Source: Atribacterota bacterium (GTDB taxonomy: Bacteria > Atribacterota > Phoenicimicrobiia > Phoenicimicrobiales > Stramentimicrobiaceae). From it: 37,678 nucleotides of DNA. Where the stretch lies: the NCBI GenBank assembly GCA_028717805.1, contig JAQUNC010000018.1:1-37678 (forward strand), in the 5' to 3' direction. Under the pieces are notes generated by a model, which did not search any database, was not told where the DNA came from, and saw only the letters and a list, made by a program, of their open reading frames with translations. Each line of letters begins with the position of its first letter. The first letter of the stretch is position 1. Below, in pieces: positions 23,349 to 30,059 of the stretch. The position numbers and the translations under genes are program-made.

Positions 23349-24386
23349 TTAGAGATACAGATAGGTACTCCTTAATTGTCCGCAGGCAGCTTTAATATCC
23401 TGCCCCCTGGAATATCTGACTGTTACAGGTATGTGTTTTTCTCTCAATATTTTCTGAAAAGCATTAACGGTGTGCTCATCAGACGGAAACAGGTTATTAA
23501 GTCCATCTACAGGGCTGTAGATAATTAAGTTTATCTTGGCATCAAAATCAAAAATCATCTGGCTTAATTTATTTGCCTGCTGGAGACTGTCGTTAATTCC
23601 TTTTAACATCAGATATTCAAAAGTTACCTGTCTATTTTTTTTCTCATAGTAAATCTTGCAGGCATCTATTAACTTTCTCAATGGGTATTTCTTATTAACA
23701 GGCATTAATGCCGTTCTGGTTTTTTCATCTGCTGCGTGTAATGAAACAGACAACTCTACTTGCAGGGGAAATTCAGTAAACCTTATAATACCAGGGATGA
23801 TACCGCAGGTTGATACGGTTATCTTCCTGGCACCAATATTTAAACCTTGTTTTTCATTTAGGATTTCAATTGCATTAATAACATTTTCATAATTATCAAA
23901 AGGCTCACCCATACCCATAAAAACTATATTCTGAATACTTTCACCTGTAATCCTCCGTACAGATAGGATTTGTTCAATTATTTCTCCTGTTGACAAATCC
24001 CTCTTATATCCTCCTTTGCCGCTTGCACAAAAAAGGCAGTTCCATAGGCATCCTACCTGTGATGATATACATAATGTATTTCTATTATTATTCCTTATCA
24101 AAACAGTTTCAATATACTCATTATCAGTTAACTGAAAAAGAAATTTTTCTGAACCATCATAGGATTTCTGATTTTTAAGACATTTTATATCGATAATTGT
24201 AAAAATTGAATTCAATTTTTCTGCTAATTCTTTTGGTAAATTTGACATTTCTCCGAAGGAATTTACGTTTTTTTGATAAATCCATTGAAAAATCTGTTGA
24301 GCATGAAATGACTGGTATCCTTCTTGGTAAATAATATTTTTTAAGTTATCAAACTTTATTCCTTTGATATCAACTTTATCTTTCAT
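23349..24386 (-). CDS. rlmN: Dual-specificity RNA methyltransferase RlmN
   Basis: This radical SAM enzyme methylates C2 of A2503 in 23S rRNA and A37 in some tRNAs. The 345-aa protein has the radical SAM cysteines CLWNCLFC (Cys113, Cys117, Cys120) and the conserved QVGC and GMGEPFDNYENV motifs. A VELSVSLHAADEKTR segment follows, and the C-terminal catalytic cysteine is in IKAACGQL (Cys335). RNA-binding N-terminal region: about residues 1-100. The start is ATG 24386. Length and motifs are complete. It stands between a terminator (24420-24467) and the tRNA promoter. Confidence 0.97.
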   Translation of the reverse strand: MKDKVDIKGIKFDNLKNIIYQEGYQSFHAQQIFQWIYQKNVNSFGEMSNLPKELAEKLNSIFTIIDIKCLKNQKSYDGSEKFLFQLTDNEYIETVLIRNNNRNTLCISSQVGCLWNCLFCASGKGGYKRDLSTGEIIEQILSVRRITGESIQNIVFMGMGEPFDNYENVINAIEILNEKQGLNIGARKITVSTCGIIPGIIRFTEFPLQVELSVSLHAADEKTRTALMPVNKKYPLRKLIDACKIYYEKKNRQVTFEYLMLKGINDSLQQANKLSQMIFDFDAKINLIIYSPVDGLNNLFPSDEHTVNAFQKILREKHIPVTVRYSRGQDIKAACGQLRSTYLYL

Positions 24387-24419
24387 TTTTTTCCCTGTTT
24401 TGTTATACAGAAACAGAAA

Positions 24420-24467
24420 GTCGATGGAATATAAATTATACTGGGTAATCTATTCTATTCCATCGAC
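24420..24467 (-). terminator. Hairpin between the LolA-like gene and rlmN
   Basis: Perfect 12-bp arms GTCGATGGAATA (24420-24431) and TATTCCATCGAC (24456-24467) enclose a 24-nt loop. On the minus strand a TTTCTGTTTCTG tract follows. It is a probable terminator of the LolA-like gene. Confidence 0.7.
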
Positions 24468-24519
24468 ATTTATTACATCTCTCCTACTATCTCTGTATAC
24501 TAAATCTACTATCTCCTTC

Positions 24520-25512
24520 CTAATCCTGGGGCATAAAATCTTTTAACATATCCATCATGCCTTCCATCATAGCGCCGAGGTCTTCTTCGGACATTGGTTT
24601 ACCTTCGCTGTAATCAGGTATATCCAGTGTCTCCTTGCTTTCTAAAAGAGTTCCATAAAAAAGTTCATCTGGCAATCCGGTATTTACTTCTACACTGGTA
24701 ACAACTATTTCCATTTTACCCATAGATTCCAAAAAGCCCGCAAATTCCTCTGATGAGAAATCATCTTCACCTTCTCCAGCCATTTCCGGGTCATCAAATT
24801 CATATTGAGTAGATATTGACATTTTATGGCAAAGCAGCATGGAACCAACAAGACGATAATCCAGAAAATCTACATCGGTAACCATATTCATTGTTACGGT
24901 TTTACCATCTTCTACTGTAGTTGTTTTGGTATAATTCTTGGCTTTCAAAGGTACTAATGTTTCCTTATCAATCCAGTATATCCCCTGTATTTCAATTTCA
25001 GAATCTTCCGGCATATCTGAACTTGCCATATCTTCCATACCCATCATCCATATCGCATCATCAAGCTGAAGCTTATAGGCATCCTTCCCATCCACAGCTT
25101 CATCACCCAGGTACATGGCTTGTTCAGGAGTAAACATTTTCCAGGCTTGTAATGAATCTATGCCCCCTTCTTCCTGTTCTATTTCACCAGTAACAGGATC
25201 ATTAGACCAGGTATATAAACCATCAAAAATGGTAACTGTATCCATTCCCATAACACCAGTTTCCATACGGGACATAAATACTTCTTCGTTGTTCACAACT
25301 GCTTTTTTATAATAAGTTGTTGTTACCACATTAAAAAATCCGCCTTTCATCTCCTGGACTACAGTTAAATCATGGATTCCGCTTAACTGTTTTTCATAAC
25401 TTTTTTCCATTTGTGCCATAATAGTATTTATATTAGTTGCTGCTAGAATAGAACAATGTGGCAGAAAAATTAACAATACCAAAACCGCCAGTAGTGTGAA
25501 TCTTTTGTTCAT
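24520..25512 (-). CDS. Secreted LolA-like outer-membrane lipoprotein-sorting protein
   Basis: The 330-aa protein has a signal peptide (MNKRFTLLAVLVLLIFLPHC, cleavage probably after SILA near residue 24). The mature part looks like the LolA/LolB half-barrel superfamily: repeated beta strands such as TIFDGLYTWSNDPVTGEIEQ, DAYKLQLDDAIW and IQGIYWIDKETLVPLKAKNY. It then has an acidic, methionine-rich C-terminal tail (EEDLGAMMEGMMDMLKDFM). It is longer than E. coli LolA (about 200 aa), so it may be one of the COG2834-like sorting proteins rather than the general lipoprotein chaperone. I chose ATG 25512 over 25518 because GGAG is then 8 nt away. It suggests a periplasm and outer membrane. Confidence 0.6.
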   Translation of the reverse strand: MNKRFTLLAVLVLLIFLPHCSILAATNINTIMAQMEKSYEKQLSGIHDLTVVQEMKGGFFNVVTTTYYKKAVVNNEEVFMSRMETGVMGMDTVTIFDGLYTWSNDPVTGEIEQEEGGIDSLQAWKMFTPEQAMYLGDEAVDGKDAYKLQLDDAIWMMGMEDMASSDMPEDSEIEIQGIYWIDKETLVPLKAKNYTKTTTVEDGKTVTMNMVTDVDFLDYRLVGSMLLCHKMSISTQYEFDDPEMAGEGEDDFSSEEFAGFLESMGKMEIVVTSVEVNTGLPDELFYGTLLESKETLDIPDYSEGKPMSEEDLGAMMEGMMDMLKDFMPQD

Positions 25513-25584
25513 AACCATTTCTCCTTTTATAAAATATTATTTTATTGATTGTGATTTTATCATTCTTGTTTATTCTTTGTTCAA

Positions 25585-26283
25585 TCAGGTAGTTTTCCTG
25601 GGACCAAAGATAGCTGTTCCAATTCTAATGAGGTTAGCGCCTTCTTCAATAGCAACTTTATAGGAATTGGTCATCCCCATGGATAAATATTTCATATTAA
25701 CTCTTTCTAATTCTAATCTTGCTAAATTGTCAAAAATATTTTTAACTTTTTTGAAATAGGGACGAATTTTTTCCGGGTCTCCAGTAAGCGGACCCATGGT
25801 CATCAATCCTTCCAGATGTATATGAGAAAGACTGGAAACATCTTTGGCTAACTCTTCCATATAAGCTTCAAAATCTTTATGTTCTGCTGGTTTTATCCCA
25901 TATTTAGTAAATTCACTTCCGATGTTGATTTCCAGTAAAATCGGTATAAAATCTTTCCCTGCCTTCTCAATCCTTTTATCAATTTCCCGGGCTAATTTTA
26001 TTGAATCAACACTCTGGATTAAATCAAAAATAGGCAGAGCCTTATTGATTTTATTTTTCTGTAGATGACCAATCAAATGCCAGTTAACCTTTTTTGTCAT
26101 TTCGGGATTTAATTTATTAACAATGTCTTCAGCCTCCTGAACATAATTTTCTCCAATATCAGTAGCGCCTGCTTCAATTAATTCCTCTATCTCGGTTGGT
26201 GTTCTGGTTTTGGTAGCAACTACAATCTTAACATAAGAAGGAATTTCTTTCCTTATTTTCAGATAATTTTCTCCAATAGTCAT
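25585..26283 (-). CDS. YggS-family pyridoxal phosphate-binding protein (PLPBP)
   Basis: The 232-aa PLP-carrying protein of the YggS/PROSC family is involved in PLP and amino-acid homeostasis and has no clear catalytic reaction. It has the fold-type III TIM-barrel pattern. The PLP lysine is in VVATKTRTP (Lys25), followed by ATDIGENYVQEA, WHLIGHLQKNK, LEINIGSEFTKYG, LEGLMTMGPLTGD and LSMGMTNSYKVAIEEGANLIRIGTAIFG (phosphate-binding region, shown in part). In Firmicutes and others it sits near the dcw cluster, as it does here at a distance. Upstream is the riboswitch-controlled unknown gene, 223 nt away. Confidence 0.95.
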   Translation of the reverse strand: MTIGENYLKIRKEIPSYVKIVVATKTRTPTEIEELIEAGATDIGENYVQEAEDIVNKLNPEMTKKVNWHLIGHLQKNKINKALPIFDLIQSVDSIKLAREIDKRIEKAGKDFIPILLEINIGSEFTKYGIKPAEHKDFEAYMEELAKDVSSLSHIHLEGLMTMGPLTGDPEKIRPYFKKVKNIFDNLARLELERVNMKYLSMGMTNSYKVAIEEGANLIRIGTAIFGPRKTT

Positions 26284-26506
26284 ATTTGATAACCTTCTTC
26301 TTTGAATGCTAATGTAATAAAGTAATTAATTTTTCTATTATCTTCTATTTTATGATACTTATTTATGAAAAAAAAGCAAACCAAGAACACAAAAATGATA
26401 TAGTAGCAAAAATCCAATAATTTGGTTTTCCTGAACTGACCAACCATTTCTAGGAGTATTTGATGAGACTTTTAGAAAGAAGTTTAAAATTCATTTCATG
26501 CTAAAT

Positions 26507-26941
26507 CTATTCATTGTTTTGACTAAATACTTTTTTTACCACATGTTCCAATCGGCTCTGTTCCTTGTTGCTGATAAATTTTTTCTTTGTCAGAGGCTTA
26601 TAAATATTATTTTTCTTTTCTATTTTTTTCACCGGAGACATTTTTACAGCTGGTAACTCTCGTTGAGAAGGAATATTGATTGGATCTGGTGATTCAGATT
26701 TGACTGGCATTTCCGGTTCTTCTATTTTTTTACTGATACGACGGTCAAAAGAAGTGCCCTCAACTAAGCGTCTGAATAATTCCGCACTGGGACAATAACT
26801 TTCTTTGGTTGGAGTATCTTTTTTTTCATCTGCGCTATAACTTTCTTCCCAATCAATGTTTATTTCGTATTGTTGTTCTACTTTGTTTTTCCCATTCCCA
26901 TTATCTGGATAATTCATCACTTTTCTATGGAATAGATTCAT
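26507..26941 (-). CDS. Unrecognised 144-aa protein under c-di-GMP riboswitch control
   Basis: I do not recognise this protein. It is 144 aa, hydrophilic and rich in K, E, S and P, with no signal peptide or membrane span. The N-terminus is MNLFHRKVMNYPDNGNGKNK. The middle part has a possible short helix, SAELFRRLVEGTSFDRRISK. A proline-rich low-complexity stretch (about 80-115) follows, and the tail is basic (KPLTKKKFISNKEQSRLEHV). It looks partly disordered. It is likely real: ATG 26941 has a GGGAG ribosome binding site at good spacing, and a c-di-GMP-I riboswitch lies 41 nt upstream. The gene product is therefore expected to act in a c-di-GMP-dependent process such as motility, adhesion or matrix control, but nothing in the sequence says which. 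Confidence 0.75.
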   Translation of the reverse strand: MNLFHRKVMNYPDNGNGKNKVEQQYEINIDWEESYSADEKKDTPTKESYCPSAELFRRLVEGTSFDRRISKKIEEPEMPVKSESPDPINIPSQRELPAVKMSPVKKIEKKNNIYKPLTKKKFISNKEQSRLEHVVKKVFSQNNE

Positions 26942-26982
26942 TTTTATCTCCCTGATTCTATTAATAATTAGAAATAAAAATT

Positions 26983-27070
26983 AAGTCGGCAACCTGGCAA
27001 TCATAGCATTTAGCTTTAGACCCAAGGCTTTGCGCCCTATCCTTTCGGTATAGTTTGCCCTTATCAACTT
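26983..27070 (-). promoter_or_regulatory. Cyclic di-GMP-I (GEMM-I) riboswitch
   Basis: The RNA read on the minus strand shows the GEMM-I core in order. These are GGGCAAAC (27053-27060), a small P2 hairpin with a GAAA tetraloop (CGAAAGG, 27041-27047), and GCGCAAAGCC (27026-27035). They are followed by a P3 arm with CTAAAGC...GCTATG, which suits the tetraloop receptor, and GGTTGCCGA (26986-26994). The ends close as P1: AAGTTG with CGACTT. The order and bases match the Vibrio Vc2-type aptamer closely. An AATTTTTATTTC tract follows at once, and the ribosome binding site is 30 nt further on. Whether control is by termination or by translation is not evident. Confidence 0.9.
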
Positions 27071-27185
27071 CTCATTAAGACATATTATTTTTTATTTATT
27101 ACAAAAAAAGCGTATATTTTCTGTCTTTACTTATATTATTCCCTATTTTCTAAATTTTATACGAATTTTTTAAAATTATCTCTTA

Positions 27186-27362: not shown

Positions 27363-29753
27363 TTATTCGGTTTCCCATAACAGGGCAACACTGATGCCAA
27401 AAATATCACTCTTTTTAGGTTTAATGCTAATGGTTTCAATAGTATAATTGTCAATATCAAATTGACCAGCCATACTCTCAATACTCTGTTTTAATTCATC
27501 TTCCAATTTTTGAATATTCTCGCTGAGTGCTTCAATCTTCTTTTTTACCAATTCCACATCCTTTTTTTCTTTCATAATTCTACTTGCCCTACTCAAACCT
27601 GTAACACCAGTACTTAAAGTACCCACTTTCGTTCTCCCCAGTAAAGCACCCAGCACGCTTGATCCTAAAGACAAGGCGCTTTGGGTAGTTAAAGTCTTTA
27701 CATCTGCCTCTTCTTTTTCCAATTTCTCCTGCAGTTTAATGAATTCTTTTTCTAATTTTTCTTCCTTCTTAGCATATTGCTCAGTTAACTTCTCCACTGC
27801 TTTATCCTTATCTTCCCTGATAAGGTCTAATATACGGGACTTGAAATCAGCAAGTGCTTCATCCGGGCTCGATAAAAGTTTGAATTCTTTGCAGCTGAAA
27901 AGCTCAACTCTGGTATTATCATAAAGATAATTCTTGAACTTTTCTTCCAGGGCACTCATATCCTTCATCTTTTCTAAAAAGGGAGGTAATAAAGCAAAAC
28001 GAGACTTTTCGAATGCTTTACGGTCATAACTACTTATATCACCCTCATCAGGAATCGCCTCATTAAAATTAAACTCAACAGTATCTTGATATACAGGAAC
28101 CTTAAGAGAGATCTCCTTCTTCTGGTCAATTTTTTTAGATTCACTATAAAATCTTACCTTGCCGTTAAATATAATGCTGGGTTTATAAACCACCTTTTCT
28201 CTAAAAGGCGGGTGATGTAAAAAATATTGCCTTATCTTATCTGATAGAAATGGTTTTGTTCCACTTATTACTGACTCATCAATTTTTGCACCTACCTCAA
28301 CCTCAGAGACCTCTTCCTGTTGAGGAGCAACCATTGCTTGTTTATTCTCCATCAGCTTTTTTATCTCTATAACCGATAGAGGACCTCTTAAATAAGATAA
28401 TACCCATCTTGTTTCAAACAGAGGTAGGGAATCCAGATGAGCGCTCTTTAAAAGAAAGTTACGCTTTTTCATGTTGGCAAGCAAATTATCTACCTCACTC
28501 TTATTCATGGCTCCTACCGTGTTTTTCGCCAATCCATCCACCACTTTTTCTCTATCTTGTCTGGTCTGCAACCTACCTAAGAACCAGCTACCAATATTAG
28601 CCAGCCCTTTATAATCAAGATCGATAGGATTTTGAGTGGCTAAAACTACTCCTACGCCATAAGCCCTGGCTTGTTTTAATAAAATCAACATCGGCTGTTT
28701 GGAGGGCGGATTTGAAATCGCCGGAAAGAAACCGAATATTTCATCCATATAAATTAAAGTTCTCAAAGCAGGAGTCCCTGTTTGTTGCCTCATCCAGCTG
28801 ATATATTTATTTAAAAAAAGTGTCACAAAAAACATCTGCTGATTATGATCTAAATGAGACAGAGAAAGGACGCTAACCCTGGGCTGGCCATCTTCATTGT
28901 ATAAGAGGTTTTGAATATCTAATCTTTCTCCCTCCAGCCACATAGAAAATCCTGGACTTGATAGGATATTATTTAGAAGCATAGCCAGTTCAAATCTTTC
29001 CTTCTGGGGATAAAAACTATTTAAGCTTAAGACACCAATCTTCTCAAAAGGAGGATTGGTAATATAACCAATCAACTCCTCCAGAGTAAGGTTAATATTT
29101 TTCTTCCAGAAATAAGAAAATAGAGCAGCTATAAGAATATATTCTTTGCTGGTTAAAGCGTCAGCCTTGACATTAATCAGGGAAAGAAGCCCTGTTACTG
29201 TAGAATTAATCACGGCAGAATAGGTATCAGGGTCATTCATAATATCTTCAGGGGGTGCTTCAAAACTGCTTAATACAGATAAGGGAATACCTGCCGAACT
29301 ACCGGGAGTGTATATGGTAAAATCAGCACTATTTTTATAAAGACTGACTCTTTCCTTATCCTGCTGAAAACTTTTTAATCCTGCCTCCCAGTTCTGCGCT
29401 ACCTCCTCTGCATAGGCACTGGGCTGCATACCTTTGTTTTCTGCTTCAGCCGGGTCAATCCAATCCTGGAAATTTGCCGGTTTCAATCCCGGAAAAGCTA
29501 ATAAAAGGTTCCCCATATCTCCTTTGGGATCGATGACAATGGAGGGAATTTTATCAATAGTAGCTTCTTCAATTATAGCAATACCCAGACCGGTTTTCCC
29601 ACTCCCGGTCATACCAATTATGGCAGCATGGGTAGTAAAATCTTTTGATTTATAAAGAAAAGGTTCCTCCTTAGTTTGAAATGTCCTGGGATTAACTTCT
29701 TTTCCCAGATAAAACAAACCTAATTTTTCATATAAAGAAATATTATTTCCCAT
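27363..29753 (-). CDS. HerA/VirB4-like P-loop ATPase with C-terminal coiled coil
   Basis: The 796-aa protein resembles the bacterial HerA-type (DUF87/DUF853-like) ATPases of the FtsK-HerA superfamily, hexameric motors that move DNA or proteins. Walker A is IIGMTGSGKTGLG (residues 45-57), with IDPKGDMGNLL after it. Walker B is TLIYMDEIFGF (332-342), followed by the sensor LATQNPIDLDYKGL and the arginine-rich FLGRLQTRQDREKV. The C-terminal half has a beta-rich region and a long coiled coil (about 600-760). No NurA nuclease is adjacent, so a role in end resection is not supported. ATG 29753 has GAGGAAAGG upstream and is preferred to TTG 29795. Confidence 0.8.
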   Translation of the reverse strand: MGNNISLYEKLGLFYLGKEVNPRTFQTKEEPFLYKSKDFTTHAAIIGMTGSGKTGLGIAIIEEATIDKIPSIVIDPKGDMGNLLLAFPGLKPANFQDWIDPAEAENKGMQPSAYAEEVAQNWEAGLKSFQQDKERVSLYKNSADFTIYTPGSSAGIPLSVLSSFEAPPEDIMNDPDTYSAVINSTVTGLLSLINVKADALTSKEYILIAALFSYFWKKNINLTLEELIGYITNPPFEKIGVLSLNSFYPQKERFELAMLLNNILSSPGFSMWLEGERLDIQNLLYNEDGQPRVSVLSLSHLDHNQQMFFVTLFLNKYISWMRQQTGTPALRTLIYMDEIFGFFPAISNPPSKQPMLILLKQARAYGVGVVLATQNPIDLDYKGLANIGSWFLGRLQTRQDREKVVDGLAKNTVGAMNKSEVDNLLANMKKRNFLLKSAHLDSLPLFETRWVLSYLRGPLSVIEIKKLMENKQAMVAPQQEEVSEVEVGAKIDESVISGTKPFLSDKIRQYFLHHPPFREKVVYKPSIIFNGKVRFYSESKKIDQKKEISLKVPVYQDTVEFNFNEAIPDEGDISSYDRKAFEKSRFALLPPFLEKMKDMSALEEKFKNYLYDNTRVELFSCKEFKLLSSPDEALADFKSRILDLIREDKDKAVEKLTEQYAKKEEKLEKEFIKLQEKLEKEEADVKTLTTQSALSLGSSVLGALLGRTKVGTLSTGVTGLSRASRIMKEKKDVELVKKKIEALSENIQKLEDELKQSIESMAGQFDIDNYTIETISIKPKKSDIFGISVALLWETE

Positions 29754-30059
29754 TTTCCTTTCCTCTTCTTCTGATTTAGTAAAGAGTGCGTCCAATTATT
29801 GTTTATTCTTAAGAAGTATCAAAAGAGTTTTTACTTTTTTATTAACCACTTTTTACTATTTTTTTCGCTTTTCTTTTTATCCATCTTTTCACCTAATCTT
29901 TCTCAACAATATTACCTCTTTAAGTAATTTAAATTAAAGAATACTCAAATAGCATTCGTAGCACGTACATCTTAATCCTTCTAGTTAAATAAATAATCAG
30001 AAATCACACTCATACTCTAGTTTAATTTAATTAAATCTATTGATTTTATTGACTAAAAA
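29754..30059. other. Gap between DUF937 and HerA-like genes
   Basis: This is AT-rich sequence of 306 nt. It contains the strong GAGGAAAGG ribosome binding site of the HerA-like gene. I see no convincing promoter pair, hairpin or small gene. Confidence 0.5.

Follow-up and report, generated by a model that had tools for sequence, protein, structure and literature searches.

A c-di-GMP-I riboswitch and a sigmaB/sigmaF-like promoter ahead of a lineage-restricted 144-aa gene in Atribacteria: a candidate member of a regulon of type IV pili and surface lipoproteins

The locus described here lies on a 37,678-nt stretch of DNA from an Atribacteria genome of 2.27 Mb in 92 contigs (G000); the whole stretch is referred to as the window. 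On its minus strand, a 144-aa ORF is preceded by a c-di-GMP-I (GEMM-I) aptamer, with 43 nt between the aptamer and the ATG, and followed by yggS. Upstream of the aptamer is a promoter-like element of the sigmaB/sigmaF type. In the direction of transcription, the features are:

27156..27162 (-), −35 element GTATAAA of a sigmaB/sigmaF-like promoter (consensus GTCTAAA; motif scans)
27137..27143 (-), −10 element GGGAATA, separated from GTATAAA by an N12 spacer (motif scans)
27127..27132 (-), approximate transcription start, placed from the −10 position only
27065..27070 (-), 5′ strand of stem P1, AAGUUG (comparison of aptamer and relatives)
26985..27069 (-), c-di-GMP-I (GEMM-I) aptamer (RF01051, 72.5 bits)
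26983..26988 (-), 3′ strand of P1, CGACUU (comparison of aptamer and relatives)
26972..26984 (-), U-rich tract directly 3′ of P1, candidate aptamer-embedded terminator (tract count after P1)
26948..26952 (-), Shine-Dalgarno (SD) sequence GGGAG (direct reading)
26507..26941 (-), 144-aa ORF (P0001), a new lineage-restricted protein family (ORF calls, orthologues, pN/pS)
26738..26797 (-), conserved central motif YxPxxxLFRxLxEGTSFDxR, residues 49-68, with a predicted helix at 53-62 (alignment, AlphaFold)
26516..26584 (-), conserved C-terminal motif KKFIxxxxxxRLxxxVxxV, residues 120-142, with a predicted helix at 125-142 and a pLDDT of about 80-87 (alignment, AlphaFold)
26347..26379 (-), probable promoter serving yggS itself, in the ORF–yggS gap (direct reading, suggestive only)
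25585..26283 (-), yggS, encoding a PLP-binding protein (Ala_racemase_N), the conserved downstream neighbour (family match, gene order)

A first-pass annotation had recognised a GEMM-I aptamer with its core blocks and a closing P1, and had suggested checking it with Infernal against RF01051. Both points hold: in a cmscan of the window, the single c-di-GMP-I aptamer on the minus strand matches the model over its full length (1-87/87) with an E of 1.6e-12 and a score above the gathering cut-off of 35 bits, and AAGUUG and CGACUU form the P1. The aptamer has a G at the specificity position (AAGGGCAAAC), which we take to be the Hoogsteen contact G20 that separates the c-di-GMP from the cGAMP types (GEMM-Ia/Ib). 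An A replaces this G in the aptamers L075:11351-11434 and L071:2617-2706, the former being the orthologue of the window's aptamer in genome G001.

The ORF runs uninterrupted from ATG to stop, with GGGAG 6 nt ahead of the ATG. Protein searches found orthologues in three other Atribacteria MAGs, two from the same genus (G001 and G002, with 56% and 48% identity in an alignment of the four sequences) and one from another genus of the same family (G005, 32%). All indels among them are in-frame, the start MN[LI]F is conserved and pN/pS ranges from 0.39 to 0.76, staying below 0.8 for every pair. By these sequence measures, the ORF is a real gene under purifying selection, and its confinement to four MAGs speaks against an essential role. 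A profile built from the four sequences retrieved nothing else credible from 50 genomes of this phylum, and a pattern-based search of one genome per species, covering 84,980 species, returned only three loci, i.e. the known relatives. Two weak profile matches were judged to be due to chance: an internal stretch of an apparent L-aspartate oxidase in G011 (E 0.0025) and an isochorismatase-like ORF on contig C140 of G002 (E 0.02).

Searches of Pfam, NCBIfam, PHROGs and the PDB gave no credible relative for the protein or its two motifs, nor did viral, plasmid and phage collections contain relatives of the protein. An AlphaFold model from the four sequences consists of the two short helices, the rest being of low confidence (mean pLDDT 63, pTM 0.19). 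The protein contains 28 K+R and 23 D+E, and residues 76-120 carry a net charge of +5. The first-pass description of a hydrophilic protein with proline in its middle and a basic tail was accordingly right, the second half being basic, as was the statement that it resembles nothing known: no family matches, and the prediction is largely unstructured. In Gram-positives, yggS adjoins sepF, which is why SepF came into consideration; this identity was dropped on reading, as the protein has no SepF core. We infer that the protein would be a disordered adaptor or regulator working through its two helical motifs.

Comparing the regions 5′ of the aptamers revealed a common element, GTCTAAA-N12/13-GGGAATA, the −10 part of which fits the sigmaB/sigmaF type. 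In the window, it reads GTATAAA-N12-GGGAATA and stands 67 nt 5′ of the aptamer, with 0.01 occurrences expected by chance in the window. All four ORF-carrying genomes have it (one mismatch each in the window and G001, none in G002, two in G005), and it is degenerate, with 4-5 mismatches, in the ORF-less genomes G006 and G007. A standard sigma-70 scan of the leader found no site above shuffle expectation, which is consistent with the use of a different sigma.

Across the family, the element occurs with at most two mismatches within 260 nt upstream of 22 of 35 aptamers, compared with 0.4% of shuffles. Exact GTCTAAA-N10-16-GGGAATA sites number 38 in ten family genomes against one for a reversed-pattern control, and their spacing is always 12 or 13. 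An aptamer follows within 350 nt at 26 of these 38 sites (23/30 in the sister family), and about half of the remaining sites precede type IV pilins. In the whole of the window's own genome, the N12 form with at most one mismatch has five sites, whose positions place them before two type IV pilins, a C39-peptidase lipoprotein with tandem aptamers, a sirtuin and the 144-aa gene. The motif is present in 20 of 24 genomes of the order versus 3 of 26 outside it, the latter three with deviating spacing. The ORF appears to be a member of a regulon of pili and surface lipoproteins that is governed by a sigma factor together with c-di-GMP and confined to the order. What had been proposed as a new kind of riboswitch target is not an isolated case: its promoter groups it with type IV pilins and lipoproteins of the surface, the usual territory of c-di-GMP.

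Other aptamer targets in the same genome (L066, L068, L069, L071) encode secreted proteins or lipoproteins that contain Big_2, InlB-type B-repeat, BspA-type LRR or transglutaminase domains. A molybdenum/tungsten cofactor riboswitch (RF01055) lies near a c-di-GMP-I aptamer in G009 (L130:2619-2737).

One aptamer of the family precedes a sigma gene (G000:C53), whose product finds its best PDB matches in SigF (1l0o) and Staphylococcus aureus SigB (8x6g). Downstream of this riboswitch-controlled gene is a PAS-GAF-HD gene of the HD-GYP type (L070:4108-6012), which likely encodes a c-di-GMP phosphodiesterase. Within the order, 17 of 24 genomes have sigma homologues, versus 1 of 26 outside, a co-occurrence with the motif that is confounded by common ancestry; none was detected in G005, a genome that is 68% complete. 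A pair of sigma genes, one of them short, stands behind pilC in G000, G001, G004, G006 and G009, with pilins next where the contig continues; the type IV pilus operon has the order pilB-pilC-sigma-sigma-DUF6982-pilins. In G000, Pfam confirmed pilB, pilC, both sigma genes and DUF6982 of this operon as well as a pilin on another contig. The known counterparts are SigF (sporulation) and SigB (general stress), matched by the aptamer-controlled sigma in the PDB and by GGGAATA as a −10 element of their type; a difference is that homologues of the Atribacteria sigma are encoded beside type IV pilus genes.

The tandem SigF/SigB-like pairs in pilus operons were seen at L188:850-5979 (G000:C43), L189, L190, L191 and L193; the first sigma of the pair is short (176-186 aa), with no region 4 detected in G000, and the two genes possibly form a two-part sigma. 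In the aptamer-controlled sigma, the region 4 helix-turn-helix has lost its end in G004 (L149), G009 (L151) and G008 (L152) and slightly so in G002 (L148), whereas the pilus-operon copies are intact in both genomes examined (G000 and G006). Because of this difference, the motif would most likely be read by the intact pilus-operon sigma (G000:C43:14827-15477 in the window's genome), a reading that draws on this intactness and on the co-occurrence of motif and sigma within the order.

As to the function of the aptamer, P1 covaries among the 41 aptamers of the family, its positions being paired in 92% of cases compared with 84% in shuffles (maximum 90%). In 34 of these 41 aptamers, U makes up at least eight of the 12 nt that follow P1 directly, versus 3 of 41 when counted thirty nt further on. 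The layout of P1 running into a U-tract, which nearly all aptamers of the family share and which hints at an embedded terminator in all of them, was noted order-wide, e.g. at L066:5468-5554, L069:6748-6835 and L076:3046-3129; most aptamers from more distant families of the phylum have no U-tract after P1. The window's own U-tract is imperfect (UUAAUUUUUAUUU). By direct reading, the 43 nt before the ATG leave no room for another hairpin or terminator. Since P1 runs straight into the U-tract, c-di-GMP probably terminates transcription: in the simplest reading, the aptamer stem would at the same time be the terminator stem and ligand binding would turn the gene OFF. This direction carries uncertainty because P1 comprises only 6 bp, is A/U-rich and is already present in the ligand-free minimum-energy fold.

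Gene order bears on which gene the riboswitch would serve. The order aptamer–ORF–yggS is kept in all four ORF-carrying genomes, where the RF01051 aptamers ahead of the ORF score 66-81 bits; in G006 and G007, the aptamer (75.7 and 75.2 bits) stands before yggS with no ORF in between. Linkage holds in one direction: the ORF always comes with the aptamer, the aptamer sometimes without the ORF. The first-pass annotation had tied its proposal to an ORF that is conserved and aptamer-linked in related genomes, and this stands for the four genomes that have the ORF, but not for the aptamers of G006 and G007. The aptamers at L061:6860-6943 and L062:3472-3554 are intact, with P1 and U-tract, have no ORF before yggS and follow a degraded sigma promoter; they can be regarded as orphan or relic riboswitches. 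Elsewhere, a HerA-like gene, yggS and rlmN adjoin without aptamer or ORF (G004, G009), and G008 has the HerA-like gene next to yggS up to the contig end, again with no aptamer. In the window, yggS and rlmN (23349-26283) share 91-92% identity with G006, which belongs to another genus, and the HerA-like protein (27363-29795) only 73%, a contrast that points to recombination with a breakpoint close to where yggS starts.

That yggS lies 3′ of the aptamer in all six genomes with an aptamer at this locus, including the ORF-less G006 and G007, raises the alternative that yggS is the true target, or in some genomes the LolA-like gene, and the ORF a dispensable passenger of the leader. We consider this unlikely, as yggS has a promoter-like element of its own after the ORF or, in G006 and G007, after the aptamer (in these two its clearest form, TTGAAA-N17-CATAAT), is found in G004, G008 and G009 with no aptamer, and is separated from the ORF by a gap that reaches about 220-275 nt. 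As read in the sequence, the promoter-like element before yggS suggests that the ORF would be a separate single-gene unit. The LolA-like gene, which follows yggS in G000, G001, G006 and G007, is absent from G002, G004, G005 and G009 and therefore no constant target; G002 and G005 carry the ORF. Nor would a mere passenger be expected to have its own SD and to be under purifying selection. The more radical proposal that the ORF is no gene at all but simply open leader between aptamer and yggS could appeal to its occurrence in four MAGs only, with close relatives lacking it. It is scarcely credible and largely refuted by the frame, start, SD and two motifs that are kept down to 32% identity and by the pN/pS values of all pairs.

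The OFF assignment and the role of the protein each have a competitor as well. The switch could instead be ON, i.e. the unliganded RNA would terminate or mask the SD and c-di-GMP would permit expression, on the model of the pilM riboswitch of Geobacter. Aptamers closely related to this one can work in both directions (PMC9262584), and pili and adhesion are usually favoured by c-di-GMP (PMC6366702). Yet the only U-tract adjoins P1, an alternative hairpin does not fit between aptamer and ATG, and a weak leader–SD pairing in the predicted fold is not kept in G002, which makes an ON switch rather doubtful. For the protein, a possible model is FlgM (PF04316), a disordered anti-sigma factor made from the very promoter of the sigma that it inhibits. 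Like FlgM, the 144-aa protein is short and disordered, its helical motif closes with EGT, reminiscent of FlgM's GTY turn, and it is predicted to be expressed within a sigma regulon. Both families of the window's order lack FlgM, which is found in none of the order's listed genomes and in most genomes of the phylum's other families; this absence suggests that flagella were lost in the order. Against a FlgM-type anti-sigma factor stand the lack of detectable profile similarity, with an hhalign probability of 0.1% (E 0.52) and no Pfam match, by which homology was rejected, and the five family genomes that carry the sigma motif but not the ORF. While the identity is improbable, a FlgM-like mode of action by analogy may apply to the protein.

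Taken as a whole, it is reasonably probable that positions 27162-26507 (-) are transcribed as a single unit belonging to a regulon under sigma and c-di-GMP control, with an OFF switch and an adaptor or regulator protein as its product. Transcription would be started at GTATAAA-N12-GGGAATA by a sigmaB/sigmaF-type sigma, most likely the intact pilus-operon copy, and the leader would fold into the c-di-GMP-I aptamer, whose ligand is assigned from knowledge of the family. With c-di-GMP bound, P1 would close in front of the U-tract as a terminator stem and transcription would stop; at low c-di-GMP, P1 would stay open and RNA polymerase would continue. The 144-aa protein would then be made together with type IV pilins and surface lipoproteins and, mostly disordered and cytosolic, would most likely link a component of the pilus, the envelope or the sigma machinery to another partner. 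A bolder version, in which the family's members are disordered proteins dedicated to regulation that attach to the sigma of the pilus operon (or to its truncated partner) and thereby close a feedback loop through which this sigma and c-di-GMP together set type IV pili and surface proteins in Atribacteria, P1 acting as the terminator throughout the order, is speculative and probably wrong in at least some part.

Known riboswitches offer partial parallels. Cd1, ahead of the flgB operon of Clostridioides difficile, is an OFF switch that places the sigma gene sigD under c-di-GMP control (PMC6366702) and works through a separate downstream terminator and an antiterminator (PMC9262584). The Atribacteria system shares with it the aptamer class, as judged by the covariance model (RF01051), and a sigma gene under c-di-GMP control, but here P1 itself enters the U-tract, and the riboswitch is found on the sigma gene as well as on many transcripts with one common promoter motif. 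The pilM riboswitch of Geobacter metallireducens, a cGAMP-responsive ON switch of the GEMM-Ib type whose terminator uses the 3′ strand of P1 (PMC9262584), has a highly homologous aptamer tied to type IV pilus functions; it differs from the direction and ligand predicted for the window's aptamer, which keeps the G at the specificity position. The HMP-PP (thiS) riboswitch is reported to unite aptamer and intrinsic terminator likewise in one structure, with the ligand suppressing termination (PMC6478431), whereas in the window the ligand is expected to promote it.

The riboswitch is of a known class; its regulon, the arrangement with an embedded terminator and the family of the protein appear to lack a description in the literature searched, where neither such a regulon in the phylum nor a paper bringing together Atribacteria, c-di-GMP and type IV pili was found. 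The circuit of sigma promoter and aptamer–terminator fusion, which was absent from the first-pass annotation, is of greater interest than the aptamer alone. With a single promoter motif and a single class of riboswitch acting on shared transcripts, sigma activity and c-di-GMP would be read in series, and an aptamer stem that doubles as the terminator would be a very compact riboswitch design. Added to this is a protein family, itself new, that would belong to a pilus and surface regulon. For a phylum of the deep subsurface of which there are few cultures, the promoter motif and the riboswitch form a candidate for a global circuit that governs attachment to surfaces.
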